Below, one piece after another: positions 4,858 to 32,069 of a DNA stretch of 40,596 bases; the first letter of the stretch is position 1; each line of letters begins with the position of its first letter. A program made the translations under genes and the position numbers. The stretch comes from Psittacicella hinzii (GTDB lineage Bacteria > Pseudomonadota > Gammaproteobacteria > Enterobacterales > Psittacicellaceae), in NCBI RefSeq assembly GCF_003585885.1, contig NZ_NRHC01000094.1, positions 1-40,596 of the forward strand, given 5' to 3'. The notes below the pieces were generated by a model, which was given only the letters and a program-made list of their open reading frames with translations, did no database searches and was not told the origin of the DNA.

Positions 4858-4867
4858 TAGAGGTGTT

Positions 4868-5670: not shown

Positions 5671-5696
5671 GTTACAGTTAGTTTCTAACTGTTAAC
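5671..5696. other. Hairpin between chaperone and usher genes (operon 1)
   Basis: GTTACAGTTAG pairs with CTAACTGTTAAC (one bulged T) around a 3-nt loop. No T tract follows, so it is not a terminator. It may be an mRNA processing or stabilising hairpin in the 169-bp gap before the usher gene. Confidence 0.45.
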
Positions 5697-5753
5697 AGTC
5701 TAAATTCACTGCTTCTTGGCATTTAACTAAAAGGCATGAATAAAAATTATTGT

Positions 5754-8288: not shown

Positions 8289-8296
8289 GGGTACTT

Positions 8297-11791: not shown

Positions 11792-11808
11792 AGACATAGT
11801 TTTAAGTT

Positions 11809-11840
11809 AGGGCTGGGCTTTGTTATTCTCAGCCCTTTTC
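11809..11840 (+). terminator. Intercistronic terminator-like hairpin between pilin and chaperone (operon 2)
   Basis: AGGGCTGGG (11809-11817) pairs with CTCAGCCCT (11828-11836), nine pairs with one wobble, and TTTC follows. The stem differs in sequence from the operon 1 hairpin but keeps place and GGGCT core, which supports selection for the structure. Confidence 0.7.
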
Positions 11841-11856
11841 TTGTGATGAGGTGTTT

Positions 11857-12573: not shown

Positions 12574-12656
12574 TGGCTGTAATGTCTGGTTATTCCTACA
12601 AAAATAACTAATGGTTTGTAGAGAGTAAAGAGAGGTTAAAGAGAGACTTTGAGCTT

Positions 12657-12734
12657 TTTAGATCAGTAAGGTTGCTTAGGTCTTTAGAACAGTGAGGTCG
12701 CTTAGGTCTTTAGATCAGTTAGAGCTCTGGGTTC
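12657..12734. repeat. Three 26-bp direct repeats between chaperone and usher (operon 2)
   Basis: Units start at 12657, 12683 and 12709 (TTTAGATCAGTAAGG, TTTAGAACAGTGAGG, TTTAGATCAGTTAGA) and each ends in a form of CTTAGGTC. They lie in the 257-bp gap before the usher gene; operon 1 has no counterpart. They could be protein-binding sites, mRNA structure elements or a neutral tandem expansion. Confidence 0.75.
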
Positions 12735-12830
12735 TTTTAGGTTTCCATACCTTAGCTTTATCTAGGTTTCTATGGTCTCAGCCTTATCCCTATCTTGTTC
12801 TTTCTCTCGCAAACAAGATCATTTTTCCCT

Positions 12831-15365
12831 ATGAAAAGATTTAAGAGATTAGCACTTGGATCAATAAATTCTCTTTGTCTTGCCTGCTTAAGTGCGACAT
12901 CATCGCTAGCTTTGGCAAACTCGCCTTATGTGGAGTTTGATGCTAACTTCTTGCTAGCTACTGGAGGAGAGAATATTGACATCTCTCGCTTTAGTCGTGG
13001 GAACTACATTCCTCCAGGTGAGTATATTGCTGATGTCACTTTAAACAATGTCTACCTTGGTAAGGTAGAGCTGGTATATGTCGATGACCCAGAAAACAAT
13101 ACTACCAAACTTTGTGCTACTCCAACTCTACTTGCTATCTTGGATTTGACACCCGAAGCTATAGATTCACAATTGCTAGCTTCTACAATCTGTCCGTCCA
13201 TTGCGCAAGTAGTACCAGAAGCCAAGTTTGAGTTTGATATGGCAGAGCTTGACTTGCAAGTGGGTATTGCCCAAGCCTATGTTAAGCAACGTCCTTTTGG
13301 TTACATCGCACCAGCACGTTGGCAAACAGGGGTTCCTGTGCTATACACTCGTTACAATATCAATCGTTATATGAGTAACAGTAAAGGTTTTAGTTCCAGT
13401 CAATACTACCTTGGTGTTGACGCGGGCTTAAACCTTGGACGATTTAGTATTCGTCATTTTGGTTCTCTGGTATGGTCAAAGCGCCATGGGAGAGAATATG
13501 CAAGTTCTTATACTTACTTGCAACATGATATTGCCCCAATTCGTGGACAAATCCGTTTAGGTGACTTCATTACCAACAGTAGTATTAGTGACAATATTAG
13601 CCTACGCGGAGCGATGGTATTTTCCGATGATCGTATGCTAGCTAACTCTGAAAGAGGTTATGCTCCGATCATTCGAGGCATTGCTAATAGCAATGCTTTA
13701 GTTACCGTTAGTCAAAATGGTAACATTCTCCGTCAAATGACAGTTCCACCTGGTCCTTTTGCTATTTCCGACCTCTTCCCGATTGCCTACAATGGTAATC
13801 TTGAGGTTGAAGTCAAAGAAGCCAATGGGCAAGTACAAAGATTTGTCGTACCTTATACAGCTACAGCCGAGCTTATGCGCCCTGGCTATAGCCGTTATAT
13901 GCTGGCAGCTGGACGTTATCGCGAAGGCTCCAAGGTATTTAACAATGAAGTGGTGCAAGCTTCATGGCAGTATGGTTTAACTAACAACATTACTCTTAAT
14001 TTAGCTTTTAATGGTACCAAAGGGTATCATTCGGAGGTAATAGGTACGGCATTTAATACTCCAATTGGGGCTTTTGCTACCAATGTTACTTTCTCGCATG
14101 CCTTGCTAAATGGTTTGGTGTTCAGTGATGAAAGTGGTAAGTTCCGTGGGTATAGTTTTTCCGTATCTTACAATACTGTTATTAAGCCAACAAATACCAA
14201 CGTAACTGTAGCAGCTTACCGCTTTCTCTCCAAAGAGTACTTAGGTTTACAAGACTATATTAATCTAGATAATTTAAAGAATCAGTTTATCAAACCACGT
14301 GATCGTATTATTGGGCATTACCAAGCTAAGCACCAGTTGCAACTCACAGTTAGCCAACAGCTAGCTAAAGGCTATGGCTACTTTTACGTCCGAGGCATAA
14401 TGAATACTTACTGGATAAAGCGCTCCAAGCAGTTTAACTACCAAGTAGGTTATTCGAATAGTTACCGCGGGGTTAACTATAGTATTTCCCTTTCACAAAT
14501 CCGTGATAGCTTTGGATTTAAAGACAGTCAGGTATATCTCACTCTGTCTTTACCGCTTGATTTTGCTGCTAAGGGCAATAACCGTCCTTACCTAAGCCAA
14601 ACTCTGTCGCAAAGTAGTCGTAATAACTTTAGTAGTAATACTTCTATTTCTGGGTCGTTAGGTAAAGACGGACGTTATTCTTATAACGTCTCTTATGACC
14701 ATAGCAACAACTCACAGTACAATGCGGTTAGTCTAAGCAATACTTACGTCAGCCCTTACGCTACTTTAAATGCTTCTTTTAGTAAAGATAACAAAGACAA
14801 CCGTCAGTTATCTTACGGTATGTCTGGCGCAATTGTTGCCCATCCAAAAGGTGTTACCTTAGCCAACGATTTAAGTGAAACCTTTGCCATAGTGCACGCT
14901 AAAGGTGCCAAAGGAGCACAAATTGACGGAACTATTGGTAACCAAATTGACCGTTTTGGTAATGGGATTGTGCCGTATTTAAACCCATATGCTTTAAATA
15001 CGGTGGGGTTAAACATTGATAGTATTCCAGACAATGTAGAGTTTGCAGCTACAAGTATGCAAGTTATTCCACGTGCGAATACGGCAATGTTAGTTGAGTT
15101 TGATACTACCATTGGCAATACTGTTTTCTTTGATATTACCAATAGCGATATGTTACCTCCACCTATGGGAACCTTAGTGTTTAATGGTGCAGGAGAGCAT
15201 GTCGGAGTGGTAACTCAAGGAGGACGTATATACACTCGTGGAGTTTCAAGCTCTGGGGAGTTAAACCTCAGCTGGGGCGAGCAAAGCTGTAAGATTGACT
15301 ATAAGCTTAGCAGCAATATAGATAGTAATTTACCGGTAATTGTTCCGGTTAGTTGTAAATTCTAA
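12831..15365 (+). CDS. fimD: Outer-membrane fimbrial usher (FimD/PapC family), operon 2
   Basis: An 844-residue usher closely related to that at 5754. The signal peptide ends near SLALA. The N-terminal domain begins YVEFDANFLLATGGENIDI. The plug/barrel signature is present: RGYAPIIRGIANSNALV, PPGPFAISDLF, GNLEVEVKEANGQ, RPGYSRYMLAAGRYR. The C-terminal domain ends CKIDYKL...VPVSCKF with its cysteine pair. A longer reading from 12795 would add MFFLSQTRSFFP, which is unlike the paralog, so I start at MKRFKRL (12831). No strong Shine-Dalgarno is visible for either. Differences from the paralog are spread through the barrel. It is the assembly pore for the second fimbria. Confidence 0.95.
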   Translation: MKRFKRLALGSINSLCLACLSATSSLALANSPYVEFDANFLLATGGENIDISRFSRGNYIPPGEYIADVTLNNVYLGKVELVYVDDPENNTTKLCATPTLLAILDLTPEAIDSQLLASTICPSIAQVVPEAKFEFDMAELDLQVGIAQAYVKQRPFGYIAPARWQTGVPVLYTRYNINRYMSNSKGFSSSQYYLGVDAGLNLGRFSIRHFGSLVWSKRHGREYASSYTYLQHDIAPIRGQIRLGDFITNSSISDNISLRGAMVFSDDRMLANSERGYAPIIRGIANSNALVTVSQNGNILRQMTVPPGPFAISDLFPIAYNGNLEVEVKEANGQVQRFVVPYTATAELMRPGYSRYMLAAGRYREGSKVFNNEVVQASWQYGLTNNITLNLAFNGTKGYHSEVIGTAFNTPIGAFATNVTFSHALLNGLVFSDESGKFRGYSFSVSYNTVIKPTNTNVTVAAYRFLSKEYLGLQDYINLDNLKNQFIKPRDRIIGHYQAKHQLQLTVSQQLAKGYGYFYVRGIMNTYWIKRSKQFNYQVGYSNSYRGVNYSISLSQIRDSFGFKDSQVYLTLSLPLDFAAKGNNRPYLSQTLSQSSRNNFSSNTSISGSLGKDGRYSYNVSYDHSNNSQYNAVSLSNTYVSPYATLNASFSKDNKDNRQLSYGMSGAIVAHPKGVTLANDLSETFAIVHAKGAKGAQIDGTIGNQIDRFGNGIVPYLNPYALNTVGLNIDSIPDNVEFAATSMQVIPRANTAMLVEFDTTIGNTVFFDITNSDMLPPPMGTLVFNGAGEHVGVVTQGGRIYTRGVSSSGELNLSWGEQSCKIDYKLSSNIDSNLPVIVPVSCKF

Positions 15366-15373
15366 GGATATTT

Positions 15374-16426
15374 ATGCAAATTGTAAAATACCTTTGTACT
15401 AGCTTACTAGCTGGTAGTCTCTTGCATTACATCCCAGCACATGCTAATACCGTAGTACAGTTTACTGGTAAGCTCAATGCTGATGGTAAAACGGTGAACT
15501 ATGAATCGGTGAGCTACTACGACATTAACTCGTTTCTTTGTGGAAATGTAGACTACGATAACTATCGTTATCGTATCGTAGACTGGCGTTTTTCAGTTTC
15601 ACCTAACTCTGCTGAAACTAGTCGCTACCTTAAACTAAAGAGAGTTTACTTCCGTGTGCAAAGAGCTGCGGGTACAGGCTACAACCTTTACCCTGTGAGT
15701 GATGGCGGTGGTGCTCTACGTGTAACCCAGAACTTTTACTATCAAGATAGAATCAAAATCTATTTTGATTTGGAGTTTGATGAGAACTTTCTCTTTAACG
15801 GTGGGGATATAACCATCCCTGCCAATAGTTTACTGCGTACGACTGCAAGTAACTGTTTCTATGTCCAAAGAGATAATACTTCTCTTTCAACTGTTAACCA
15901 AAATATCTTCCGTGGAGGTCCGGCTAACTTCCAAATGGTATTTAGATCAAGTAACGCCGTTACTTTAAACTTCACGGAAAAAACTTGTCGTGTTGGTGGA
16001 CAAGCTAATCAAACCGTACAGCTTGATACAGTTCTTAAATCAACTCTTGATTCCAAACGTACAGTTAAAGGTGGAGATTTTACAATCAGAATTAACTGTT
16101 TACAAGCTACAGTTGCTAATGCTTACGTTATCTACACTGATAGTAACACTCCAAGCAATACTTCGCAAACCCTATCCTTAAGCCGTGCTTCCACGGCTAA
16201 AGGAGTACGTTTGCAGATAGTTGATAACTCGACTGGACAAGCGATTAAGTTTGCCAACCAACCAAGTTTTAATTTTATTGGTTTAAACGACGCAACGCTG
16301 TTTACGGCTGCTAATGGTACTCGTCGTGTAATTGATCGTAGTTATACGGTTAATTATGTAAAAAACGGTAATGTTAGTGCTGGAACAGTTAATGCGCAAA
16401 TGATTTATTCTTTTTACTACCGTTAG
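15374..16426 (+). CDS. Two-domain fimbrial adhesin-like tip subunit, operon 2
   Basis: A 350-residue protein with a signal peptide (cleavage near PAHA) and the two-domain plan of tip adhesins. The N-terminal domain has cysteines C56 and C161. The C-terminal pilin-like domain has C205 (KTCRVGG) and C242 (RINCLQ), SYTVNYVKNGNVSAG and a final YSFYYR. It starts eight bases after the usher stop. Compared with the operon 1 homologue, short blocks are shared (DGKTV, SLLCGN/SFLCGN, RIKIYFDL, TASNC) but the stretches between them in the N-terminal half are clearly different, which would fit different ligand specificity. The receptor is unknown. Confidence 0.8.
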   Translation: MQIVKYLCTSLLAGSLLHYIPAHANTVVQFTGKLNADGKTVNYESVSYYDINSFLCGNVDYDNYRYRIVDWRFSVSPNSAETSRYLKLKRVYFRVQRAAGTGYNLYPVSDGGGALRVTQNFYYQDRIKIYFDLEFDENFLFNGGDITIPANSLLRTTASNCFYVQRDNTSLSTVNQNIFRGGPANFQMVFRSSNAVTLNFTEKTCRVGGQANQTVQLDTVLKSTLDSKRTVKGGDFTIRINCLQATVANAYVIYTDSNTPSNTSQTLSLSRASTAKGVRLQIVDNSTGQAIKFANQPSFNFIGLNDATLFTAANGTRRVIDRSYTVNYVKNGNVSAGTVNAQMIYSFYYR

Positions 16427-17298: not shown

Positions 17299-17333
17299 CA
17301 AAAATATGGCTCCCAATTGCTTGGGAGCCATAT
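17299..17333 (-). terminator. Terminator of giant gene A
   Basis: A perfect 13-bp stem ATATGGCTCCCAA/TTGGGAGCCATAT (17304-17316 with 17321-17333) has a 4-nt loop and is followed on the minus strand by TTTTTG. It lies about 60 bp after the stop codon of the giant gene. Confidence 0.88.
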
Positions 17334-17391: not shown

Positions 17392-20300
17392 CTACTTGCT
17401 TTTGTTACCTTTGTTGTTGCTAGGGTAAACTTTACGTAAGTAAGCAAAGTAAGGATACCAATCAGTAGTTTCAAGTAAATCCAAGCTTTGTTCACGTGCC
17501 AGAGCAAGAGAGTTACAGATTTCACTTGCTTGGTGATTGTGGGCTAAGTAAATAAACTCAGCTGGGAATGGATTTTTATTACGATTGTCTTTGTCCCAAG
17601 CTTTTACTTGCTCTTTATCTGCTACAAGGTAGAGGTAAGGAGCTTTAGTTAAGCTTGGATCACTAGCAACCACTGCTTCAAATAAGCGTTGATCAGCAAC
17701 CAGCATAACTTTGAGCTCGGTGAACTTGTAGTAGAGATGTTTAAAGAGCTCTACCAGATCACACAGCGGTAGTTGCTGGTGCTCTTGGTTTACCTTGCTT
17801 AAATTATGCATAAGCACTTGAGCAGTTAAGTGGTAACTTTGACTAAGGTCTTTGAGGTTAAACTTCCAGTAAGGTTTTAACCCTGTTGCTTGGTAAATTT
17901 CAGTTAAGCTAACTTCACCTTGTTGGTTAAACTTAGCTAACAGAGCTTTAAGATCAGGATTTACTTTACCAAGATTAAAGGTGTTGCCTCTAATACGTTG
18001 TAAGTACTTACTGTTGTTATTACCTATAGTAACCTTATCTACCGGTAATGGGAACTGATAGTGTTGTGAAGTTACTGTTCCTAAAGTAATTAGTTCTTCA
18101 CTGGTTGGTTCCCCTTTCCATCCTAAAGTTGGTGCTAAACTTTGCTTATCAAACGCAAACTCTTGATAAGTTTCACTTGGATAAGCAAGACTTGCTTGGC
18201 GTTCACGCTCTAGGCTGTCAAAGTCCACATCGTCAAAGCAGTCATTGTCAAAGTCATCTTTGTTAACCTTGCCATTAACGTTTGTATTTACGCTAGCGTT
18301 TGCGTCAACGTCAATGATTGTACGTGTGCTTTGCTCATGCTCTGCTTGTCCAAAGAGCTCTTGCACTTGTGCCGGAGTTAATCTGCTTAAGTTCGGCACA
18401 GCTTCTTGATTACGATGCTCTTGCATTTTGAACACAGTGTTGAGAGTATCAAACTGGGCTTTAACTTCAGCTTTGTAATCTTGTGCCAGTTCTTCTTGAG
18501 CTAAGTCTTGGAGAAGTTTTTCGCGGTAGAAGTATACCGGAGTTAGACGCGAATAGTCTACGCCGATGTGGTGGAAGTTTAATTCACGTTCATAGGCGAT
18601 ATAAGACTTGTCGGTATTTTCCTGGTATAAACCAGCTAATTCCAGTTTGTGGTGGATCTTAGCTAGTTGTTCTCCGCTTAAAGTATCTAGACTTTGCTGG
18701 AAGAGTAACCAGTGTAAACGATCATTAACTAAGTCCTGACTTCTTGGTGGCGCAATTACCGGTGCTTGCGTTACTTCGCGACTAATAAAGTCGCGTAACT
18801 TGTCACTTTCAAATTGCACTGAATAGAACGGAGCTTTAGTTAAGGTTACACGCCAGTGTGATAAAGATTCAAATGGTAGAGTAACTAAAGAGGTTACCGC
18901 TGGCGGTAAGTCTTTATACTCTTGTAATGCATCGCTTTGTTGCATTACCGCATTGAATACTTTTTGTACCATTAATTGCGCATGTGCTTTAAAGGTAGCA
19001 ATAAGTTCGCTATGATCACGTCCCATAAAGCTACTTTCTTCGCTAGTTGCGTACACTAAGTGAAGTGGACGGCTAGGTAAGTACACTGCTTGTTCAAGTT
19101 GAGTACTTGCATTAATGCGAATTAAGTTACGGGCAATTTCACGCTCGGCATAAGTGCGACTTAACAGCAGTTTAAATAGTTCACGACCATAAGATTTAAA
19201 CAGTGACGTTGGTGTTAAATCTTGGGCATAACTAGTTACTGGTGAATAGTCGAACTTAATTGGCAATGGACGACCTTTTTTGCCATGAATTACAAACTCA
19301 TGATCTTGGTACCAAAGTTTTTGTAAACTACCAATTTGTGGAACATTTAACATTAATGGCCAGCTTGGATCAGGCAGTTTAATGTTATGCACTGCAAAAG
19401 GCATATACAGAGGTAAACGATAGAAACGCGGTAGCGTATCGTTTTGCTCCAAGAGGGTCATCTTGTTCATTGCCAACCAGTAGAGGTTATACGCCCCTAG
19501 CGCTGGTTGATAAGCAAAGCCAGCTTTGTGCATGAAAGTATTGTACTCTGGTACAGTGCGTGGCAATCTATCTTGTGGTGTAAATGGATAGATAAAGTCA
19601 TGCACTAAAGCCGCTTCCAAGAGCTTAGCTGGTAAAAACTCATTTGGCACTGGCACAATATGCTCTGAAGCTTCGAATTTTTGTTGTTCAAGGGCTTCTG
19701 GAGCAAGAATAACATAAGGCTGTTGGGTTTGTGTTTCTAGCTCAAAGTAGATATCTTTACCACGACGCGTTAGATAACGATCACCACGCAGTACTCCTTT
19801 AAATAACAGGTAACCCGGATCTAGAGTAAGCGTAATTGAACGTGAAGTCATAGCATCACGATTTACACTTTGATAGTTGTACGCTAAATGATAGTAAGCA
19901 TTGTTGAGGTGTTGGTTAACTTCAACAAGGCTAGCGTTGTTTTGACTAACAATGTGCTCTTCTTGATCAAGGCTATAACCAAGGTATGTAGCAAATGCTT
20001 GCTGATCTGGCGAAGTGAGTACATGCGCAGTATGCGCGTAGGCACGGAGTAAGTGCTCTGGGATAGTGTACTCGAGACTTAACCAAGCAGCGCGGTTGAG
20101 TTTAAGATCACGACGAGCAAACTCAAGCGCTTTATTTAGCTGTTGCTCCATTAACTCAAGGTTATAGAGAGGTGTCGCTAATAACTGTGGCATGATCTTG
20201 AAGTAGAGATACGCCACAAAGTTATTGGCAAAACCTTGCTCAATACTTGCTTTGTTTAATAAGCCTGTAGTTAACGGAGAACTTGCGAGAATTTTTTCAA

Positions 20301-23300
20301 GCTCGTGCTCTTTTAACCCCACCTGTTGCCAGAGGTATAGTAGTTGCGCTTTAGCGCTATTGAGATCAAGTTCTCCGGTTAGGGTCGGAACTTTAAACTC
20401 ATCTTGCCCTTTATTTGGGTTAAAGATGTTAAAGCGACTAAATAAACCATCTACTAAAGCATCCTCACCCTGGTAACCCACAGCCGGACGATACAGATTT
20501 GGCGAGTCAGCAAACACCGCACTTGGGTGCTGACTAAAGAGACGTAAAGCTAAACCTGTGTCTGCTTTAGTTTGCAACTGCTTAATTAAAGCTTGACGCC
20601 ATTGTAAGGCATACTCGGTGGTAGTTTTACCCGGAGCGAACATACTTTGCGTTAAAGACTGCTCAAGTTGGAACTTAGCAGAGTTGAGTAGTTGACGCGT
20701 TTGTTTGCCGAGTACTTTGCTAAGGTTGCGCCATAAGGCTGGTGCATTTGCTAGGGCAAATTGCTCATAACTTGGGTGGGCAAGTAACTCTTTAGAGGCT
20801 GGAGCAAAGTTTGTAAAACTGAGCTCTTTGCTTGCCTCTCTACTAGTACTTGCTTCCTTGTTTGCCTCTTTGCTACTAACTTTAGTTAGCTTACTAGCTG
20901 CGCGCATGGAAATTAGCGGGTAACTTGCACTTGGTGCTAGTTTAACCCCACCACTTAGGTAAGCACTAAAGCCAGCTACGTCTTTGATCTCTAGACCTTT
21001 GGCTTGTTCAAGGGCTACCGAGCTATCTGGGTTTAAGAAAGTTCCAGCTTGCTCTTGGGCTTTTAAGTTAGCATCTTGCTTACTTGCAAGGTTAGCTTGC
21101 CATAAAGCTGCGCCGTCTAAGTTCGCAATAATCGTTTGCGCGACTTCTACTTGCTCTGCCGTTAAGTCTTTTACCAGACTTGCGAGCTTGTGTGGTACAC
21201 CTTTGTCGGTTAGAGTTAGTAACCAAGTTAAGTTGTGCTCTTGGGCTAACTCTTGAACTTGCGCTTGGTTTAAGCTCACTTGCTCGCGGTAAGCGAGAAT
21301 ACGACCGCGCTCAAGCATGCTTGCCATGCCTTTTTCATCAAACTCGGCAAGGGTTGCTAGCGCTTGCTCAAGCTCAAGATCCGGCATAATGCGCGGAAGC
21401 ATTTGTCCGAGGCTTACTTGGTAGCGTTTGAGCTCTTTACTTGAGAGCTCGTAAGCTTCTTGTACTGCTGGTTCAAGCGCTTTTAAGAACAGAGATAAGT
21501 TGATCTTATCTAAGTTAGTTTGGATAAAGTCAAGGTTATCTTGTCCAAGTAAGTGGTAGATAAACCAAAGTTCAAGGGTACTTGGATTAACTGCATAAGT
21601 TAAAAGTTTAGAAGCGCTGTTGTATTGTTTAAGAGCTTCTTGGTAATCTTGCGCAGTTAAAGGTACACGCCATTTTTGTAATGGTGACTCTAAGTCCTTT
21701 TCTAATTGCGTTGCTTGATGGGCAACAGGAATTGGTACTAAGACCAAGTTACCTTCACGTGCACTATATTGCTCCCCAAGTTTTGGTAAAGCAAAAGCTT
21801 CTCTTACGCGTTCACTAATAAAACTTAGTTTGTCATCTAACTCTTGTCCTAGACTAGTGAAAAAGCCATCAGTTGAGGTTTTACTAGAGAGGAACACACT
21901 GTTAGTTAGAGTTAAATCTAAGTGTAAACGCTCGTAGAACTCTTCTAAGTGCTGGTAGTTAGTGAAAACATCAGAGGCATTGCGTACTAGCGGTAAAGGC
22001 TCGTAAGCAAATAACTCGATATTGTTACGATGCTCAAGCATGTTCATTAATGGATCAGCATCGTAAGTGTACACTTGTGGATCAAGGGTTGCTGAAGCAA
22101 TATACTGCCAGCTATTAGTTGGCAGGTTATAGCTTTGCAATACTGCCTTGCTCTTAAAGCGACGTTTGAGATCAGGTTGAGCTTGCTCAAGCTTATCCAG
22201 ACGACTAGTTTTGTTTGCCAGAGTTTTGGCTTTAAACTTGCTTGCTTTGCTGGTAGTAACTTCTTGAGCAAAGACATCAAGATACAGAGGCGTTAACTCT
22301 GGTAATAAAGTCGCTAGATGTGGCTCTACTTTTAAAGCTTGGTTAATGTTCTCGAGGGTTACACGGACAAAGTAGCTAACATTACCAGGGTGAGCTTCTT
22401 GACGGAACTCATATAACGACATGTTGAGAGAAACATAACGTGTACGGTTATACAGAGTTTTCATTAAGAGGCTTTCGTAGCTTTGACGTACAGGTAGAGA
22501 GCGGTAAATCTCAAGAAGTTGCTGATGAGTAACTGCTTGGAGTTGGTAAGCATTTCCTGTACGTAAGTACGGATACTCAATGCTATTTAACGCATTAGTA
22601 CTTATGTTGTATGCGGTAAAACCTAAAGCATTGTAACTAAGCACATGCGTTTGACGTTTGAGACGATTTTTTGCACGGAAAAAGTCCCAAGTTAAGTCTG
22701 AACGAGTTTCAAGCCACAGATCAAGCGGACGACGAGCGAAGTTAACTTGAGTAAGAGCAAGTTTGTCCTCCATGCTTGGATAAGGTAAGCTCTCTTCGCG
22801 CTCCATTTCCTTGATAAGGTCATGAGCAGGATCTGCTACAGTTGCAACCTTATCGTCATTTGCTTGGCTATTAGATACTTGGCTATGAGATGCTTGGGTA
22901 TTAGTGTTAGAGCTGTCTATTTCGTCTGCTTCTACTTCTCTCTCCACTTCTTCAACTGCCGAAGCTTCACCGCTTCTCTTCAGAGCCAGAGCTTCTTCAA
23001 AAGCTTTTCTGAGGAATTCGAATTCTTCAGGAGAGATTGCTAGCTCTTCAGCCTCATCATCTTCCTCATCATCTTCCTCATCATCTTCCCCATTTACATG
23101 AGCAGCAAAGCTTGCTGGTGCTTTACTTTTATCCGCAGGCTCTGCAGGAGCTTTAGTAAAGCTTTCAAGAGAACGCATGTGCGCTTTACTTGCAACTTCT
23201 TCAGTCGCTTCTTCAGAAAGACCAAGATAGTCACTTTCTTGTACTCCAGGAAGGATAGCTCGCACTACTTCAGGATCGGTACTCATGGCAAAAGCAGTAA

Positions 23301-25782
23301 TTAACTGTACTCCCGGCACGATATTTGCCGTTAGTTTAGGTTCTATGCTCTGCTTTCTAGCTTTGGCAATCTCGTCCTTATCAAAGATTTCCTCGAGTTG
23401 CTCTGGGAACATAAACATGTTCTCAATAGATTCTAGATCTACACCAAACTCTTCGATAATCTTGGTTAAAAGCAGTTTGCTTTTATCTGCCGTTAAGTAA
23501 TTGTCCGGATTGAGATCATTACCATGCTCATCTTTAAAACCGTGCATAAAGAGGAGATGGTAGAAAGCTTCCATTCTCTCTTCTTCGGTTACTAGTTGAG
23601 TAAAGCTATTGTCGTTAATGCTAGTATGCACCCCAACTTCTGGAGTAAAGCTAGCTCCGTCATCAAGGTTATATACTTGCTCTTTGTCAGCTTTACTTTT
23701 AGCTTTGCTTGCTTTTTTCTTGCTAGCTGAAGTTGTGCTTTCCTCTGAAGTTTTTGCAACTTGATCTTTGCTAGAGGTAGAAGTAGCGTCAGAGCTTGCT
23801 TTATCGCTAGATGTTTGACTATCAGCTTGGCTAGTTGCAAGAATTTGCCACGCATTGGTTCCTTGGTTAAGCTGCGGAGGCGCAATTAACGTAGGGTTAA
23901 AGTCATCAGCTCCGTTTTGGTTTTGAGCTTGACCTTGAGCTTGCTTAGTAGAGCTACCCTTACCTGCTTGTCCTAAAGCTGAGCTCTCTTTTTGTCCTTC
24001 GAGGGCAAAAAGAGACGCAAGGGCTTCTAAAGCACCGATTTCGATTGCTTCTTCTGTAGGAACAAACTGCGCATGTTGGGCGTCCTTAACAAGGAACTCT
24101 GGCACGAGGTATTTTGCCATGCTCGCATTTACGAGAACTGTACGATAGATAATTTGCTCGTAAGCTAGTGGGGTCGTATCTTCTAAGTGCACCGGTAAGT
24201 TAGTTGGTGTCACCGTATGGTCAGCCTGCATGAGGCGGTACTTTTCAAGAAGAATACGTTGTTTTGCACTAACAGTTAAGGCAACTGGCGCTGCTGGGTT
24301 TAAGTAAGAGTAAGAGCTACGTAAACTTGGGTGGTTATACTCCCCAAATAAACGTCCATACACAGCCACCATAAATGGGTTTACTAGGTAGTATGGTTGA
24401 TCAAACTTCCCAGTAGCTACTAAACTCGAGTCATAGTGACTCTCAAACATTTGTGAGAGACTAAAAGAGTTACTACGTCTTTTTACTTGCTCTGGGTCAA
24501 GATTGCTAATTGATCTTACACCTAGAGGAGCAATCCAGTTGAGATAGTGCTGATACTCCATCATGCGCACTAAGTTATTGCTGCGCTCTTGTTTTTTAGC
24601 ACTCTCAAGGGCTTTATGGTAAAGGGTTGGAATAGCGTCCGCTTGGTAGTGCTCAAGGTTTGCGGTTAAATTTTGGGCAAACTTAGCTAGCACCTCGGCG
24701 TAGGCAATACGCTGGGCGCGGGTTTTGTCTTTAGGAGACAGCGCGCGTTTAAGTTGACTAAGCTCTTTGCTTACTTGCTTATGAGCAAGTTGGAGTTGCT
24801 CTTGGAGTTGACCATAAGCTTGGGCATTTAACCATGCTGAATAAGGTGTTTGACTATAGTTAGTAAACGGAAAAACTTCAGCTACAACTGCAGGGATTTC
24901 TTTATAATTACTTACTAATGGATTTTTTAACGTTGCGAGCTCCATAAAGTAGAGGTAAGAAGCAAGATCTTTGAATGCAGTGTTTTTCTGTTCTATCCCC
25001 ATGAGGTAAACATCGTTTTCTTTTAACCCCGTATGTGAGAGGTAAGAAGCAATGCTTGCTGCGCCTTTGTCTTGCAACTCTTTATAAAAGAGTTGAGAGA
25101 CTGCTTCATTGCCTCCACTGCGTAGTGGGTAAAAAGAATAGTAGAAGCGATCTTTCGCCAGTGCTTTCGCAAGAATTTTTTTTGCTTCAGGATTACTTTC
25201 CTCAATAAACTGTACTTGGCTTCTTTGCTCCCAACTTTGGTTATGGGCAAAGTTTTTAGTTACAGATTTATAGTTTAAGTAGAGGTCAAGGTCAGCGTTA
25301 AAGAGCTTAGGGGCAACCGCTGGATTTGGTTGAGCAGGGGTATCTGTTGGTGAAGCAAGCGCGGGGATCTTGGCAATGTTATTTGCATTACGCGCTGGGT
25401 AGTTTTGGTAAAGTTCCTCGTAAACTAAACGATAGACACTAAAGTTATATAAAGCGTCTTTTAAGTTAGGGAAAGGGATAACTTTACGGGTTGCTTCTTT
25501 AAACAGAGGTAGGTTACCCATTAGTTTGGTGTCAAAAACTTCCTGCGGAAATAGGGGATTTGCCGAGTAGTTTAACTCTGGGTTACTGCGATATCTATCT
25601 ATCCCCATTTCACTAAGAAATGGCATAGAGTGCAGACGCCAGTTAGCAATGCTTTGATAGGTATAAGCATGCTTAAAATCATGTAAGTCTATGCGTGGAG
25701 ATAACTCTTCCTGCAAGTGCTGGAAAGAGTTCTCTCCATGAAAAGCATAGACTTGTAATGGTTGTCTTTTGTCCTTTGTCAT
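17392..25782 (-). CDS. Giant protein A (2796 aa), function unknown
   Basis: A single uninterrupted frame of 2796 codons from ATG at 25782; a TTG two codons upstream (25788) is possible but no ribosome site supports either. I do not recognise a domain. There is no signal peptide and no evident transmembrane segment, so it is probably cytoplasmic. Globular-looking stretches rich in Leu, Tyr, Gln and Lys are separated by low-complexity inserts: Ser/Thr/Gln/Lys-rich at about 600-705, an acidic run at about 895-915 (encoded by a 12-bp DNA repeat near 23045-23090), Ser/Asn/Gln-rich at about 955-985, Lys/Ser-rich at about 1635-1655 and Asp/Asn-rich at about 2485-2520. No Walker, nuclease, methyltransferase or protease motif was seen. 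An A8 run (minus strand, 25176-25183) near codon 200 could slip. It follows lpxH but is separated from it by a terminator, so it has its own promoter or depends on read-through. Confidence 0.85.
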   Translation of the reverse strand: MTKDKRQPLQVYAFHGENSFQHLQEELSPRIDLHDFKHAYTYQSIANWRLHSMPFLSEMGIDRYRSNPELNYSANPLFPQEVFDTKLMGNLPLFKEATRKVIPFPNLKDALYNFSVYRLVYEELYQNYPARNANNIAKIPALASPTDTPAQPNPAVAPKLFNADLDLYLNYKSVTKNFAHNQSWEQRSQVQFIEESNPEAKKILAKALAKDRFYYSFYPLRSGGNEAVSQLFYKELQDKGAASIASYLSHTGLKENDVYLMGIEQKNTAFKDLASYLYFMELATLKNPLVSNYKEIPAVVAEVFPFTNYSQTPYSAWLNAQAYGQLQEQLQLAHKQVSKELSQLKRALSPKDKTRAQRIAYAEVLAKFAQNLTANLEHYQADAIPTLYHKALESAKKQERSNNLVRMMEYQHYLNWIAPLGVRSISNLDPEQVKRRSNSFSLSQMFESHYDSSLVATGKFDQPYYLVNPFMVAVYGRLFGEYNHPSLRSSYSYLNPAAPVALTVSAKQRILLEKYRLMQADHTVTPTNLPVHLEDTTPLAYEQIIYRTVLVNASMAKYLVPEFLVKDAQHAQFVPTEEAIEIGALEALASLFALEGQKESSALGQAGKGSSTKQAQGQAQNQNGADDFNPTLIAPPQLNQGTNAWQILATSQADSQTSSDKASSDATSTSSKDQVAKTSEESTTSASKKKASKAKSKADKEQVYNLDDGASFTPEVGVHTSINDNSFTQLVTEEERMEAFYHLLFMHGFKDEHGNDLNPDNYLTADKSKLLLTKIIEEFGVDLESIENMFMFPEQLEEIFDKDEIAKARKQSIEPKLTANIVPGVQLITAFAMSTDPEVVRAILPGVQESDYLGLSEEATEEVASKAHMRSLESFTKAPAEPADKSKAPASFAAHVNGEDDEEDDEEDDEAEELAISPEEFEFLRKAFEEALALKRSGEASAVEEVEREVEADEIDSSNTNTQASHSQVSNSQANDDKVATVADPAHDLIKEMEREESLPYPSMEDKLALTQVNFARRPLDLWLETRSDLTWDFFRAKNRLKRQTHVLSYNALGFTAYNISTNALNSIEYPYLRTGNAYQLQAVTHQQLLEIYRSLPVRQSYESLLMKTLYNRTRYVSLNMSLYEFRQEAHPGNVSYFVRVTLENINQALKVEPHLATLLPELTPLYLDVFAQEVTTSKASKFKAKTLANKTSRLDKLEQAQPDLKRRFKSKAVLQSYNLPTNSWQYIASATLDPQVYTYDADPLMNMLEHRNNIELFAYEPLPLVRNASDVFTNYQHLEEFYERLHLDLTLTNSVFLSSKTSTDGFFTSLGQELDDKLSFISERVREAFALPKLGEQYSAREGNLVLVPIPVAHQATQLEKDLESPLQKWRVPLTAQDYQEALKQYNSASKLLTYAVNPSTLELWFIYHLLGQDNLDFIQTNLDKINLSLFLKALEPAVQEAYELSSKELKRYQVSLGQMLPRIMPDLELEQALATLAEFDEKGMASMLERGRILAYREQVSLNQAQVQELAQEHNLTWLLTLTDKGVPHKLASLVKDLTAEQVEVAQTIIANLDGAALWQANLASKQDANLKAQEQAGTFLNPDSSVALEQAKGLEIKDVAGFSAYLSGGVKLAPSASYPLISMRAASKLTKVSSKEANKEASTSREASKELSFTNFAPASKELLAHPSYEQFALANAPALWRNLSKVLGKQTRQLLNSAKFQLEQSLTQSMFAPGKTTTEYALQWRQALIKQLQTKADTGLALRLFSQHPSAVFADSPNLYRPAVGYQGEDALVDGLFSRFNIFNPNKGQDEFKVPTLTGELDLNSAKAQLLYLWQQVGLKEHELEKILASSPLTTGLLNKASIEQGFANNFVAYLYFKIMPQLLATPLYNLELMEQQLNKALEFARRDLKLNRAAWLSLEYTIPEHLLRAYAHTAHVLTSPDQQAFATYLGYSLDQEEHIVSQNNASLVEVNQHLNNAYYHLAYNYQSVNRDAMTSRSITLTLDPGYLLFKGVLRGDRYLTRRGKDIYFELETQTQQPYVILAPEALEQQKFEASEHIVPVPNEFLPAKLLEAALVHDFIYPFTPQDRLPRTVPEYNTFMHKAGFAYQPALGAYNLYWLAMNKMTLLEQNDTLPRFYRLPLYMPFAVHNIKLPDPSWPLMLNVPQIGSLQKLWYQDHEFVIHGKKGRPLPIKFDYSPVTSYAQDLTPTSLFKSYGRELFKLLLSRTYAEREIARNLIRINASTQLEQAVYLPSRPLHLVYATSEESSFMGRDHSELIATFKAHAQLMVQKVFNAVMQQSDALQEYKDLPPAVTSLVTLPFESLSHWRVTLTKAPFYSVQFESDKLRDFISREVTQAPVIAPPRSQDLVNDRLHWLLFQQSLDTLSGEQLAKIHHKLELAGLYQENTDKSYIAYERELNFHHIGVDYSRLTPVYFYREKLLQDLAQEELAQDYKAEVKAQFDTLNTVFKMQEHRNQEAVPNLSRLTPAQVQELFGQAEHEQSTRTIIDVDANASVNTNVNGKVNKDDFDNDCFDDVDFDSLERERQASLAYPSETYQEFAFDKQSLAPTLGWKGEPTSEELITLGTVTSQHYQFPLPVDKVTIGNNNSKYLQRIRGNTFNLGKVNPDLKALLAKFNQQGEVSLTEIYQATGLKPYWKFNLKDLSQSYHLTAQVLMHNLSKVNQEHQQLPLCDLVELFKHLYYKFTELKVMLVADQRLFEAVVASDPSLTKAPYLYLVADKEQVKAWDKDNRNKNPFPAEFIYLAHNHQASEICNSLALAREQSLDLLETTDWYPYFAYLRKVYPSNNKGNKSK

Positions 25783-25854: not shown

Positions 25855-25884
25855 TAAAAAAAAGAGTACCAAATTAGGTACTCT
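25855..25884 (-). terminator. Terminator of lpxH, overlapping its stop codon
   Basis: On the minus strand AGAGTACC/GGTACTCT (8 bp, 25884-25877 with 25870-25863) has a 6-nt loop and is followed by eight T. The first stem base pairs fall within the TAG stop codon of lpxH. Confidence 0.88.
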
Positions 25885-27598
25885 ATAAGTTTTCCGGATC
25901 AATAAATGCAAATGTAAAACGGTTAATTGCTTTGCCTTCTTTAAAGGCTTCTTGTACAAGTAAAGCTACGGATGCACGACTTTGTGGTTGCGTGCAAAGG
26001 GCAATAGCTTTTTCCATACGTTCTTGCAAATCTTGAGGATTGCAAGTTTGTACACGAAGAGGTTCTTGGGTGTTAGTGCCTGTGCTTGCATTGGCATTAG
26101 TATCTGCACCAGTAGTTACACCTGAACCTGCATTTGCACTTGCACCTGTATTTTGTGCAGAAGCAACCTCTGGAGGATTAGTTTGAGAGCTTGCTTGCGC
26201 ATTAGTTTGTGAACTAGCTTGCGAAGTTGTTGCACTCTTGCTCTTTGGACAAGTTGCTTGGGCACTTTCTTGCTCTAGGTCATCTTGGGCAGTTTCTTGC
26301 CAAGCGCGAAGCGCTTGCTCTTGACGAGCTTGTTGCTTATCCAAATCTGCTTGACTTAACCAGTCCGCCATAGAAATGCCATAAAAGCTTGAGTTGTTTT
26401 CTTGCGGATCAAGCACAAAAAAGTCTTGATTTAGGAGCTGTAACTTATCCCAAGTGGTTAGGGCTTGCTCTTGTTCTTTAACCCCACGTAGGTTGTTACT
26501 TGCAGTAAAAGTACGAATTTTACCCACCGGAATTGGGTAAAGAGAATCTACTTCACTGTAAGCCTCACGGTCTCGCATTTTTGCCAGATTACCAAAATCA
26601 ATAAACTCATGGATATTTTGGTAAGAATGGATTTGCGGTGCTCTTTGTCCATAAGCTTGTGACCAATTGAGCATACGCTGGCGATGGATATGACCGTAGA
26701 TCATGAGGTTAGCTTGGCTCATATGCGCTAAGTAAGCAGTGTAGTTTAACTCTATGTCAGCCATATCTAGGGTACTTGCTTGCCCTAGAGAAGCTTGCTC
26801 TTGGTTGCTTAGGCTTGCAGAATTACTAGAGTTGTTAGCGTTAATTGTAGCTGTTAACAGCTCTTCTTGCTGTTTACGTTTAGCTTTCGAAGCTTGTGAG
26901 ATACGATTAGCGATTGCTTTTACTAAAAAAGTAGGAATGATCTTTTCGATAAAGCGAACAAAACCAGAACGGACAACACGGCGATATCTTTGGTAAGCTT
27001 CGTCAGCTAAACAAAGGTTATCTCCATGACAGAGCCAGAGGCGTAAGCCCTCTGGGTCTTGCGCTTGATCTAAAGTTTTACTCTTGTATCTTAGTTCATT
27101 AAGTAAGCTATCACGATTTGTAAAGGTATAGTTACTTAGAGTTGCAACTTGAGGATCAAGTTGGGTAAAAGTTGCAAGAGTTGCTTTGTCTCCCTCTTGG
27201 TTAATAGAGAAGTCGATTAAAGTATTTTCTGGTAAGTAAATAGCACCTATGGCTTTACAAAATTTCTTCCCGAGTAAGAAATCACGGTTACCTACCATAA
27301 AGAAGATCTCGCCTCCAGCTTCTTTAAACGCCAGAAGTTTAGCTTGGATAGGTTTAAACCAGTCAGGAATAAAATCCCCAATCCCTAGTGCTAAAAAATC
27401 CCCAAGGATAAAGAGACGAATGTGTGCTTGTAAACGGTGGTCAATGGCAAGCTGGGTTAGCTTGTCCACAAAGTTAGTAAAGAGTTGTTCTAACTCATTG
27501 GTACTTGCATCAAGATGCAGGTCACTAACAAAGAAGTTGTAGAGGGTCAGGTCATCACCTTCAATGCGAGTTAGAAATGGTAGAGTGTAATTGTCCAT
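25883..27598 (-). CDS. lpxH: LpxH-type UDP-2,3-diacylglucosamine hydrolase with long insert and C-terminal tail
   Basis: LpxH cleaves UDP-2,3-diacylglucosamine to lipid X and UMP in lipid A synthesis at the inner membrane. The calcineurin-like metal site is complete: D26 and H28 (SDLHLD), D67 (LGDF), N104 in GNRDFLLGKKF (a very LpxH-like block), H191 in CHGDNLCLADEAYQRYR, and H303/H305 in GHIHRQ. The helical cap region KAIANRISQASKAKRKQ also fits. The protein has 571 residues, while LpxH is usually about 240. The extra length comes from an insert at about 131-187 before the HGD motif, an Asn/Ser/Gln insert at about 253-280, and a tail from about 345 that includes Ala/Ser/Thr/Gln/Asn-rich low complexity (about 450-520) before an ordered-looking end (QERMEKAIALC...FTFAFIDPENL). 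The reading frame is intact. No clear ribosome site. A relaxed-specificity metallophosphoesterase is the alternative. Confidence 0.82.
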   Translation of the reverse strand: MDNYTLPFLTRIEGDDLTLYNFFVSDLHLDASTNELEQLFTNFVDKLTQLAIDHRLQAHIRLFILGDFLALGIGDFIPDWFKPIQAKLLAFKEAGGEIFFMVGNRDFLLGKKFCKAIGAIYLPENTLIDFSINQEGDKATLATFTQLDPQVATLSNYTFTNRDSLLNELRYKSKTLDQAQDPEGLRLWLCHGDNLCLADEAYQRYRRVVRSGFVRFIEKIIPTFLVKAIANRISQASKAKRKQQEELLTATINANNSSNSASLSNQEQASLGQASTLDMADIELNYTAYLAHMSQANLMIYGHIHRQRMLNWSQAYGQRAPQIHSYQNIHEFIDFGNLAKMRDREAYSEVDSLYPIPVGKIRTFTASNNLRGVKEQEQALTTWDKLQLLNQDFFVLDPQENNSSFYGISMADWLSQADLDKQQARQEQALRAWQETAQDDLEQESAQATCPKSKSATTSQASSQTNAQASSQTNPPEVASAQNTGASANAGSGVTTGADTNANASTGTNTQEPLRVQTCNPQDLQERMEKAIALCTQPQSRASVALLVQEAFKEGKAINRFTFAFIDPENL

Positions 27599-27753
27599 TG
27601 TTTGTCTGTGTTGATTGGAAAGTTAAAATTAGGGGATGGTAATAATAGGATAGCATAAAGGTCGGAGGTTTAGGGGAATTTAGTTGGAAGTTATTATAGG
27701 AGGCTAGAGGTTATAGTAGGAGGTTGTAGCGTGGGGTTAGAGAGATCGGCAGG

Positions 27754-27779
27754 AAAAAACCGAAACTAGGCTTCGGTTT
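27754..27779 (-). terminator. Minus-strand terminator upstream of lpxH
   Basis: On the minus strand AAACCGAA/TTCGGTTT (27779-27772 with 27764-27757), with a 7-nt loop, is followed by TTT (six T in all, three of them in the stem). It lies 156 bp before the lpxH start, so a minus-strand RNA from around 27800-27950 would end here, or lpxH transcription would be attenuated here. Confidence 0.75.
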
Positions 27780-27844
27780 ATCAGGTTAGTTTATAGCAAT
27801 TAGAATGAGCGCCTTGTAAAATTAGCGCGCAAATAGAAAACAAC

Positions 27845-27939
27845 GTATCGCTTTTCAAAAACAGTATGTGTCTGCCGAATCTCTCTATTATAAAACTGGC
27901 GTGTGGCACCAGCTTTCCCTTTGAATTGAAAAGCGATAC
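27845..27939. other. 95-bp inverted-repeat element between two minus-strand terminators
   Basis: GTATCGCTTTTCAA (27845-27858) is exactly complementary to TTGAAAAGCGATAC (27926-27939). The interior has a further small hairpin (CTGG...CCAG near 27896-27912) and a TATAAT on the minus strand. It has no open frame and no obvious target duplication. It lies between the hairpins at 27946-27980 and 27754-27779. It may be a small structured RNA, a leader element of lpxH, or a MITE remnant. Confidence 0.6.
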
Positions 27940-27945
27940 TAAGGG

Positions 27946-27980
27946 GTAAAAACCATTATGAGGTTAAACTCGTAATGGTT
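27946..27980 (-). terminator. Probable minus-strand terminator
   Basis: A 12-bp stem AACCATTATGAG/CTCGTAATGGTT (27951-27962 with 27969-27980), with one wobble and a 6-nt loop, is followed on the minus strand by TTTTTACC (the first two T belong to the stem). It would end a transcript coming from the structured region at 28000-30000. Confidence 0.55.
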
Positions 27981-28273
27981 AAATTTAGGAGATAACAAAT
28001 GTTTAAGAACGTTTATAGTTTTTTGTCGGTACTTAACCAACGGAGGAGGAAGTTAAAGGTTTGGCTTGTAGATTCAAACTTTTTAACTGTTTAGGGAAAG
28101 AGTTTAAGTAAAAAATAAAAAGAACGGATCTTCTAAAAACTTAGAAAAAAGGTAAGGGGGAATTCTTAAATATCTTTTACAAAAAAGGTTGCTTTGTTAG
28201 TAATTATTAGTTGCTTGTAGGCAACTAGTAGTAGTCGTTAAAATTTGGCTTTGTTAATTTTTTTAGTAACTTT

Positions 28274-28375
28274 AAGTCGGAGCTTTATTTAAAAATAGTC
28301 GGAGCTTTTATTACTTTGATAAGTTTGGAGCTTTAAAAAGTTTTGCTGGAGCTTTAAAAGTTTTGCTGGAGGTCT
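28274..28375. repeat. Tandem AGTCGGAGCTTTA-type repeats
   Basis: AGTCGGAGCTTTA (28275), AGTCGGAGCTTTTA (28297), AGTTTGGAGCTTTAAAA (28321) and two copies of a 20-bp GCTGGAGCTTTAAAAGTTTT-type unit follow one another. The motif resembles the degenerate repeat at 1950-2118. Confidence 0.7.
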
Positions 28376-28487
28376 AGTGACTTTTTAAGTAGTCGATTTT
28401 AGTTATTTAAATAAGCTTAAAGTTTACTAGTTTTAAATTCTTAGTAGGTTTTATAAAAGGTTTTAAAGCAGATTTGTTGCCTTGTTT

Positions 28488-29990
28488 TATCAGTTTTGGA
28501 CTGATTTATAAATTTGGGCTGTTTTATCCTTATGTCCTTTGCTGTTTTAGCTTATTAGAGGTAAAAAAGGGTTAATATTCTTTTTCTTTTCCCTTTAATA
28601 AAACCAGAAATAAAAAACATAAAGGGAGAAAGAGGAAAGAATATTAACTCTAAGAATTACATTTTTAGGACAGGGATACATGACTAAGTTTAAGAGGATT
28701 AAGTAGCGAGCTGCCACAAGCTACAAGAGAGTTTTGAGTTAATCCTGCTTAAACTTAGAAAGTACAAAATGCATACTCATAGCACCTATTTTTATAACGT
28801 GGAATTTTTTCTTCAAAGAGAATCTCTACTAAAGAAAAAGAATGAGTAATATGCCAGATTCTACCTCTTCCTCACAAATATTTCAGCCAAGTCTATGGAG
28901 GAAAAGATAGTTGAACTACAAGTATGCATATTTTAGCTTTGCCAAAAAGCTAAAATATGAAAACTTAGTGATTTTTCAATTTGAAAAAAATAAAAAAATC
29001 TGAGAGAAATAACAGTAGACTAATTTGCTTATTAAATGTTAGGCTACATCATTTAATAACACAACATTAGTACATTAAAAGAAAATCATCCCCGAATTTA
29101 CTTTTAACTGACAGCTTTCGGTCAGAGGCTTATTTGCTCTATTATGTTACTTTATAGGAAGAGGAATTACAAAGTAACGCGGAAACATTTTTATTCCTGT
29201 GGAAGAGAGTAAAAACTGAAAGAGATCCTTTCGTCAATGCCAGAGAAAATTTTTCTCTGCAGTGGCACATTGATGAACTGTACAGAGGAGATAGTACAGG
29301 TAGTCAAAAAAGGCTATTTTCTGTTTCTCTTAATAAAGCAAAATGGTAAAAGCTATCCTAGCTGTTACAACTCTCGGATTTAAACTGAGAGTATCTTAGT
29401 TGTTTTAAGTAGGAATGTATAAAGAACTTTGTATGTGATTGGTCTTTATGCTTCTTAATATAAAAGGGAGTTCACAACTAAGAAAACAGATGGTTTTGAC
29501 AAAACTTACTAAATGTTTAGTTGAGACAAATGAGTTTATTTATAAAAAAGATTAGTCTAAAAATTAAATTAATAAAGTGCCATTAAAAAGATAAAGAACG
29601 CAATTATTAAATTAAATATTATTTTTAATCTAAACATATTATAAAACAGAAAAAATAAAAATTATTAAAAAATGATAAAATAGAAGATATAAATTTATCA
29701 AACTGTGAAGTAGATCACACTTTTGTCTGGAGCTCAACAAAAAGAATGAGATATTTCCTAGGGAAAAGACATATAGCTTTAATATCCTCATGGTTTCGTA
29801 GGTTAAAACGAAAGTTTAACTTAGATTTACTCATATCTATATAAGTATAATCAAAAAGTTTATTATCTTTTGACTTAGAGATTATTGTGATTTATTGATA
29901 TAAATAAAAATAGCATTATCTACCTTTGTTATATAAATAATTAAAAAATTGAGAAATTAACTATATTTTTCGTAGATCGTTTATTTTTAT
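28488..29990. ncRNA. Candidate large structured RNA: about 1.5 kb of consecutive stem-loops
   Basis: There is no coding frame, but complementary arms follow each other almost without gaps: 28488-28504; 28571-28648 (arms of about 28); 28684-28758 (19 bp, one bulge, inner GTAGC/GCTAC); 28771-28854 (GCATA-CTCAT arms with two nested stems); 28861-28910; 28927-28959 (perfect 14 bp); 28972-28988; 29019-29071 (ACTAAT outside a perfect 10-bp stem); 29075-29107; 29108-29125; 29146-29178; 29234-29273; 29278-29299; 29367-29403; 29419-29449; 29475-29523; 29747-29790 (nested). After about 29530 the sequence is so AT-rich that weak stems are expected by chance. Strand is undetermined: the minus-strand terminator at 27946-27980 favours minus, but this is not proof. 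It does not show the conserved cores of RNase P RNA, tmRNA, SRP RNA or 6S RNA. A graveyard of small palindromic elements is the main alternative. Confidence 0.4.
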
Positions 29991-30074
29991 TTAGACGAGA
30001 GTGATAACAAATTACCAAGAAAGTGGCAGGTTGAGGATTGAGTAAAACTAGCTTTAAACTAGTCAAGAAAAAGG

Positions 30075-30350
30075 AAAGCTAGACCTAAAATCGTAATTTA
30101 AGGCAAAGGCGTTAAAAATAAAGCTAGACCTAAAATAGCAAGTTAAGGCAAAGGCTTAAAAAGAAAGCTGGGCTAAAAATAGCAAGTTAAGGCAAAGGCT
30201 TAAAAAGAAAGCTGGGCTAAAAATAGTAATTTAAGACAAAGTCGTAAAAAGAAAGCTAGGCTAAGAATAGTAATTTGGGGTACAGCTCAGGTAAAGGCGT
30301 AAAAAATAAAGCTTGACCAAAAATAGTAAGTTAAAGTAAAAGTGTAGATG
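30075..30350. repeat. 44-bp tandem repeat, six units, upstream of thiI
   Basis: Units begin with AAAGCT at 30075, 30120, 30164, 30208, 30252 and 30308, so the period is 44-45 bp and the last interval is 56. The core is AAAGCTNGRCTAAAAATAG then TAAGTTAAGGCAAAGGC. The third and fourth copies are nearly identical. The units are contiguous, without unique spacers, and the period is not a multiple of 3. Confidence 0.9.
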
Positions 30351-30522
30351 GTTAAGTAAAGTCCTCCTCATTAAAGGCAAACTGCGCAAATCCTACCTCA
30401 AAGCTACATGCTCCAGCACAAGGTTTAACTTGCTCTTCAATTCATAATTCTCCCCTCCCTTTCTCCTGTGATTTCTTCGCTAAATTAGTCCAAATTCCCG
30501 CAAATTACATCAAAAAAGACGG

Positions 30523-30528
30523 TATAAT
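30523..30528 (+). promoter_or_regulatory. Probable -10 element for thiI
   Basis: A perfect TATAAT lies 63 bp before the thiI start. The -35 region 17 bp upstream (GCAAAT) is poor, so an activator or a relaxed promoter is implied. Confidence 0.45.
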
Positions 30529-30590
30529 ATAGCAACTTGGAGACTAAAGTTTTGCTCCAATAATTTAGTATTAAAATTCACCGGTATATT

Positions 30591-32069
30591 ATGTATTTAC
30601 GAATTAAACTACATCCTGAGATTGTGACTAAGTCAGACTCAGTACGTAAACGTTTTGTAAAGATCCTTTCTTCGAACATTAGACAAAGTTTAAAAACTTA
30701 CAACCTTGATTGTTCAATTCAACCTAACTGGGATAATATCCTAGTTAGAGCCAAATGCGAACCTACACTCTACCCTGTATTTGTCCAAATCCTCCGTCAA
30801 GTACCAGGTATCCAAAAGATCCTCAAAATCAAACTTGTTCCTTTTACTGACATGCATCAACTCTTTGAAGAAGTTTTAGAGTTAAACCGTGAGCGTTTAC
30901 AAAATAAAACTTTCTGCGTGCGTGTAAAACGTAAAGGTAAGCATGAAGTGCGTTCAATTGATATTGAGCGTTATGTTGGTGGTGGGTTACGCCAACATAT
31001 CGAGGGTAGTAAAGTACAACTAACTAATCCTCAAGAAACCGTACAAATTGAAATCGAAAACGATCAAGCTTTCTTAATTGAGCATGTTTTCTCTGGTTTA
31101 GGTGGCTTCCCAATTGGAACCCAAGACGCAGTATTGTCAATGATCTCTGGGGGTTATGACTCTGCGGTTTCTTCTTACCAAATGATTCGTCGTGGTTGTA
31201 AACTGCACTACCTCTTCTTTAACCTTGGTGGTCAAGAGCACGAGTATTACGTAAAACGTATTGCGCGTAAAATTTGGCAAGGTTATTCAGCTTCACACAA
31301 TGTGAAGTTTGTAACCGTAGACTTCTACGACATTATGATCAATATTGCCAACGCAGTAAGCGATGGCTATACCGGCGTTTGTTTAAAACGCATGTTCTAC
31401 CGTGTTGCCAATGCGATCGCTCAACGCTTACGCATTGATGGTTTAGTAACCGGTGAAGCTTTAGGGCAAGTGAGCTCGCAAACGTTAAAGAATCTTGCAG
31501 TAATTGAACAGGTAAGTGAGCGTCCAATTCTTCGTCCATTAATTGCCATGGACAAAGAAGAGATTATTCACTTAGCGCAACAAATTCAAACTGCTGAGAT
31601 CTCTGCACGTGTCCAAGAGTTCTGTGGCATTATGGGGAAAAAACCTACCATTGCTGCTGACGTTAAACAGCTTGAACAAGAAGAAGCTAAACTTGATATC
31701 GACGCCTTAGTAGCAAAAGCTATTGAGACTGCCAAAGTTGAAAACATGCGTGAACTTGCACAGCAAGATCTAGCGCATATCGAAGCAACGCAATTAACTT
31801 TTGTTTCTCAACTATACAGCGACAAAGATGTAATCATTGACGTACGTGACCAAGAGACTTTTGAAAATGCAAATAACCCTTGGCCTGTACCGGCGATTAA
31901 CATTCCATTCTTCCACTTAGTTGACAAGTTTGGTGACCTTGACCAAAGTAAACGCTATGTTCTTTACTGTACTAAAGGCTTATTAAGCCGTATCCAAGCA
32001 GTTAACCTTATTGAGAACGGCTATAAAAACGTTGTAGTTTTAAGTAAAGATTACAAGTTTGAACAATAG
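30591..32069 (+). CDS. thiI: tRNA 4-thiouridine synthase / thiamine sulfurtransferase ThiI
   Basis: ThiI adenylates U8 of tRNA and transfers sulfur to it, and in bacteria with the rhodanese domain it also feeds sulfur to the ThiS carrier for the thiamine thiazole. The protein has 492 residues, close to the E. coli length. Order: N-terminal ferredoxin-like and THUMP region (1 to about 165), PP-loop SGGYDSAVSS with S186-D190, the adenylation domain with C345 in EFCGIMGKKPT, and a rhodanese domain (about 395-492) with the active-site C460 in LYCTKG. Both redox cysteines are thus present. The start ATG has no obvious Shine-Dalgarno, but the first residues (MYLRIKLHPEIVTKS) match the family N-terminus. 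It is followed 135 bp later by rsmE on the same strand. Confidence 0.97.
   Translation: MYLRIKLHPEIVTKSDSVRKRFVKILSSNIRQSLKTYNLDCSIQPNWDNILVRAKCEPTLYPVFVQILRQVPGIQKILKIKLVPFTDMHQLFEEVLELNRERLQNKTFCVRVKRKGKHEVRSIDIERYVGGGLRQHIEGSKVQLTNPQETVQIEIENDQAFLIEHVFSGLGGFPIGTQDAVLSMISGGYDSAVSSYQMIRRGCKLHYLFFNLGGQEHEYYVKRIARKIWQGYSASHNVKFVTVDFYDIMINIANAVSDGYTGVCLKRMFYRVANAIAQRLRIDGLVTGEALGQVSSQTLKNLAVIEQVSERPILRPLIAMDKEEIIHLAQQIQTAEISARVQEFCGIMGKKPTIAADVKQLEQEEAKLDIDALVAKAIETAKVENMRELAQQDLAHIEATQLTFVSQLYSDKDVIIDVRDQETFENANNPWPVPAINIPFFHLVDKFGDLDQSKRYVLYCTKGLLSRIQAVNLIENGYKNVVVLSKDYKFEQ

Follow-up and report, generated by a model that had tools for sequence, protein, structure and literature searches.

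What is a protein of nearly 2800 residues that matches no known family, and how did it come to lie beside lpxH in the chromosome of Psittacicella hinzii? The window that we analysed, 40,596 nucleotides of contig NZ_NRHC01000094.1, carries such a frame, which we call giant protein A. A preliminary description of its letters had proposed it as a strong candidate for an undescribed protein family. Psittacicella is a bird-associated genus of the Pasteurellales, and the literature on it yielded microbiome mentions only. We compared four Psittacicella genomes: that of P. hinzii (G000, the source of the window), G001, G002 and G003, the last being the most distant of the four. Named relatives of P. 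hinzii are Psittacicella gerlachiana (NZ_NRJF01000023) and P. melopsittaci (NZ_NRJH01000003).

The open frame occupies positions 17392-25782 and comprises 2796 codons, from an ATG at 25782 to a TAG stop ending at 17392. Its existence and length were as first described, with the strand corrected to minus; in this interval the plus strand is riddled with stops. An in-frame TTG lies two codons 5' of the ATG and would give 2798 codons; in the alignment, both orthologues begin at the equivalent of ATG 25782, not at the TTG. The other five reading frames across the gene contain 150-323 stops each, and the chance of a stop-free run of 2796 codons is about 10^-74 at the local base composition. Codon usage was close to that of the neighbouring genes (r = 0.94). 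The terminator previously ascribed to the gene was also found, as a strong intrinsic terminator at 17304-17333 on the minus strand, with a 13-bp stem read from 17333 to 17304 and then T's; the other strand is T-rich too. A second terminator-like hairpin (25863-25884, minus strand) lies between giant A and the upstream lpxH-like gene, behind the latter. Promoter-like matches were no more frequent than in shuffled sequence. The protein has no apparent signal peptide and, as had been claimed, no membrane segment (the Kyte-Doolittle mean over 19 residues peaks at 1.22), and a search for internal repeats or internal duplication found none.

The orthologues in G001 (2470 aa) and G002 (2467 aa) were 39 and 42% identical to giant A over their length. 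Differences among species at codon positions 1, 2 and 3 were 0.49, 0.36 and 0.63. Of the residues common to the orthologues, about half were encoded by differing codons. The codon-position differences and the switched codons at kept residues indicate a translated frame on which purifying selection acts. Giant A is thus a real coding frame maintained by purifying selection, as the preliminary description had argued from its size, and this coding-type conservation contradicts the possibility that the frame is untranslated. By the same comparisons, it evolves much faster than its neighbours: identity among the same species was approximately 40% for giant A, approximately 50% for LpxH and 77-87% for ThiI and HemE.

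The best-conserved core spans residues 1001-1900 (20089-22788, minus strand) and is 49% identical to both orthologues. Upstream of it lies a partly low-complexity insert at about residues 585-985 (22834-24036, minus strand; alignment columns about 850-1210); sequence entropy is lowest at residues 581-700 and 901-960. It had been suggested that low-complexity inserts split the protein into several globular parts. That suggestion failed for the main insert, which is largely missing from both orthologues and is therefore private to P. hinzii and does not serve to link conserved domains. The structure prediction that had been proposed for such parts was run on two slices of about 1200 residues and gave no usable model: AlphaFold2, with an alignment of three sequences only, returned a pLDDT of 31 for the C-terminal 1197 aa of the P. 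hinzii protein and 30 for the first 1200 aa of its P. gerlachiana orthologue. At these values a fold search would yield meaningless matches, and we draw no structural claim from the models.

We searched for relatives of giant A at several depths. Nothing above chance level was found in Pfam, NCBIfam, PHROGs, PADLOC or PDB sequences; the candidates TetR_C_34, MIT, Helicase_C_3 and RpnA (E = 0.01-0.1) were inconsistent between orthologues and were rejected. A whole-protein search of 59 genomes and a profile of the core run against 394 genomes of the order found no relative beyond the genus. Neither did a peptide-pattern scan of approximately 85,000 species genomes, which reaches close relatives only, so that very remote homologues may escape it. 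No match was obtained by tblastn in phages and plasmids, or in viral contigs. Giant A is thus genus-restricted in the collections searched. With orthologues under purifying selection in two congeners and no confident match to a known family, its proposed status is upheld: judged from sequence, giant A is a real, undescribed, genus-restricted and fast-evolving giant protein family.

The chromosomal setting is a housekeeping one. In all three giant-bearing species, giant A shares its strand with the lpxH-like gene and follows it directly, and thiI, rsmE and a second giant gene diverge from this pair. The conserved upstream neighbour in P. hinzii (25883-27598, minus strand) encodes an enlarged LpxH-like phosphoesterase of 571 aa, double the usual length, which scored 129.7 bits, just under the NCBIfam cut-off of 134 bits; family models still recognise it as LpxH. 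Its metal-binding motifs SDLH, GNRD, HGD and GHxH are retained, and its C-terminal extension is low-complexity. LpxH is 456-584 aa long in Psittacicella compared with about 240-274 aa in relatives. HemC usually has a length of about 310 aa; in Psittacicella it has approximately 400 aa. The genus enlarges some proteins, namely LpxH and HemC, while ThiI, RsmE and HemE are near normal size. LpxH is like giant A in being enlarged in Psittacicella, and unlike it in that its family remains recognisable.

On the divergent side, the conserved plus-strand genes at 30591-32069 and 32205-32954 encode what we take, from family knowledge, to be ThiI and RsmE. Directly after rsmE lies giant protein B (33016-40596, plus strand), of which at least 2527 aa precede the end of the window. 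It was found in all four species, at 23-28% identity, the G003 copy reaching at least 1753 aa before its contig ends. Giant B had no family match and was genus-restricted in the genomes searched. Profile-profile comparison of the two giants gave a best E of 0.017 over a short segment and an hhalign probability of 0.1, and we regard them as unrelated. Elsewhere in the window, a 3-kb AT-rich stretch (27600-30590, approximately 28% GC) without long ORFs separates lpxH from thiI; in G001 and G002 this spacer is shorter, at about 1.4-1.5 kb. Two paralogous fimbrial operons of the chaperone-usher type follow one another at 4241-9346 and 11213-16426 (plus strand), each with a major pilin, chaperone, usher and tip protein, as named from their translations. 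A plus-strand gene at 186-1937 encodes a protein with many BspA/DUF285-type repeats, and genes resembling it also occur near giant B in G001 (L035:3068-6672).

The fourth genome differs at this locus. In G003, lpxH, thiI, rsmE and giant B are all in place, and the giant A core is absent throughout the genome, which is 86% complete. The slot between lpxH and a conserved gene of about 100 aa holds instead a single 639-aa ORF, on the strand opposite to that of giant A. The flanks of the slot are identical: it is bounded by lpxH and, at its other end, by a homologous gene of 101/104 aa; the same small gene also lies beyond giant A in G001 (40% identity, E = 7e-24, to the G003 copy). A nearly ORF-free stretch of 6 kb beside the 639-aa ORF (L032:5229-11304) holds the 104-aa gene at 6516-6830, with an orthologue at L048:21000-21305, and contained no remnants of giant A. 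The three giant-bearing species had no copy of the 639-aa ORF elsewhere.

The first 50 residues of the 639-aa ORF resemble the N-terminus of giant A. When the N-terminal 110 residues of the P. gerlachiana protein were compared with those of the ORF, the score was 60, which was reached by none of 2000 shuffles; the next-best of approximately 224 real control proteins scored 37. BLAST E-values between the ORF and giant A were 0.008-0.045. By shuffling, a profile of the three giants matched the ORF with P = 0.002; a higher score, though, came from one of approximately 150 real controls, and C-terminal similarity was not significant. We consider homology between the 639-aa ORF and giant A likely but unproven.

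On these grounds we tentatively favour, at a little short of an even chance, a reading in which giant A is an intracellular, vertically inherited protein that changed length at a fixed locus, most plausibly by growth from a shorter form. Giant A would be a soluble Psittacicella protein held at a core-genome position beside lpxH, with a length of about 2470 aa in two species and 2796 aa in P. hinzii through the private insert. The 639-aa protein of the outgroup G003 would be its counterpart, keeping the N-terminal segment. Insertions would have lengthened a shorter protein at the lpxH slot and, to a lesser degree, the LpxH next to it, and the giant form may perform a cell-internal task, enzymatic or scaffolding. 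Three parts of this reading we infer: the homology to the 639-aa ORF, the intracellular enzymatic or scaffolding role, and growth rather than shrinkage, whose polarity rests on one outgroup, G003, too few to give direction. Because the ORF lies on the opposite strand, a common slot would also need one inversion.

That strand difference suits a second explanation, which we rate as a real possibility, if a somewhat improbable one: giant A may be a lineage-specific orphan without any shorter ancestor, the G003 ORF being unrelated and there by chance. The similarity between the two is weak and confined to approximately 50 residues, and G003 has no trace of the giant A core. Chance placement sits poorly with a slot whose flanks are identical on both sides and whose two occupants are mutually exclusive, and with the ORF being by far the best match to the P. 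gerlachiana N-terminus when set against controls.

Heme synthesis offers a more specific identity for giant A. HemC and HemE were found in all four Psittacicella genomes, and HemD was undetectable in all four, both with the Pfam HEM4 model, which does detect it in most families of the order, and with an alignment of 25 gammaproteobacterial HemD sequences. HEM4-like matches elsewhere in Psittacicella were helicases, and an ORF behind hemE was rejected as HemD. The missing HemD appears from these genomes to be a genuine puzzle, a missing step in heme synthesis, and with HemC and HemE present, HemD may be present somewhere in divergent form, or may have been replaced. Giant A and the 639-aa ORF could then be grossly enlarged uroporphyrinogen-III synthases (HemD), in which an N-terminal beta-alpha-beta and a C-terminal beta-alpha-beta-alpha element would together make up domain 1, separated by huge insertions. 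We consider this unlikely. In its favour, an enzyme that the pathway needs is otherwise missing from four of four genomes, and the 639-aa ORF has one HemD-like stretch at the expected position (CISILFFASAHAVESLL, VVCLAPGDSTRQAI), a motif around SxxAV followed by a GxxT segment, with a block-chain score matched by none of 1000 shuffles; further HemD elements follow in order, by eye.

However, neither giant A nor the 639-aa ORF, which are 2.5 to 10 times longer than HemD, had a significant HMM or profile-profile match to it (HEM4, PF02602). Among real-protein controls, HMM scores placed the ORF only third and global alignment about sixth, and the unrelated N-terminus of giant B scored nearly as high in the HemD block chain. 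The giants themselves have no consistent HemD blocks, and key residues are absent: alignments read directly lack the near-invariant HemD arginine of the N-terminal TRP and the GxGGR motif. It is unlikely that giant A is a core metabolic enzyme, with HemD the leading candidate, that grew approximately tenfold by insertion within one genus. If it were, an ordinary enzyme of about 250 residues would have become a 2800-residue protein unrecognisable by sequence, with a 639-aa intermediate persisting in a sister species.

Its size, its fast evolution and the host association of the bacterium would also fit a large secreted toxin, adhesin or contact-dependent effector. This seems to us improbable for a protein without apparent signal peptide, transmembrane segment or repeats, that matched no adhesin, RTX, Rhs or toxin family in Pfam, NCBIfam or PHROGs, and whose housekeeping neighbourhood is fixed in three species. 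Among giant bacterial genes of unknown function, a near comparison is with Giant1-5 of Apilactobacillus kunkeei, which encode surface proteins located outside the cell and lie one after another (PMC12863079). They resemble giant A in being very long, intact and fast-evolving frames with few or no homologues outside the genus; giant A differs in having no apparent export signal or repeats and in lying in a housekeeping neighbourhood. It is highly improbable that giant A belongs to a phage, a plasmid or a defence island: it is a large orphan and patchy within the genus, but its synteny is vertically conserved, and searches of phages, plasmids, viral contigs, PHROGs and PADLOC gave no match.

Giant A is a giant gene without known relatives, fixed in a small host-associated genome, beside a neighbour whose protein is swollen too. 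The fourfold length difference at one slot within one genus would offer a way to study how large insertions arise and persist in bacterial proteins.
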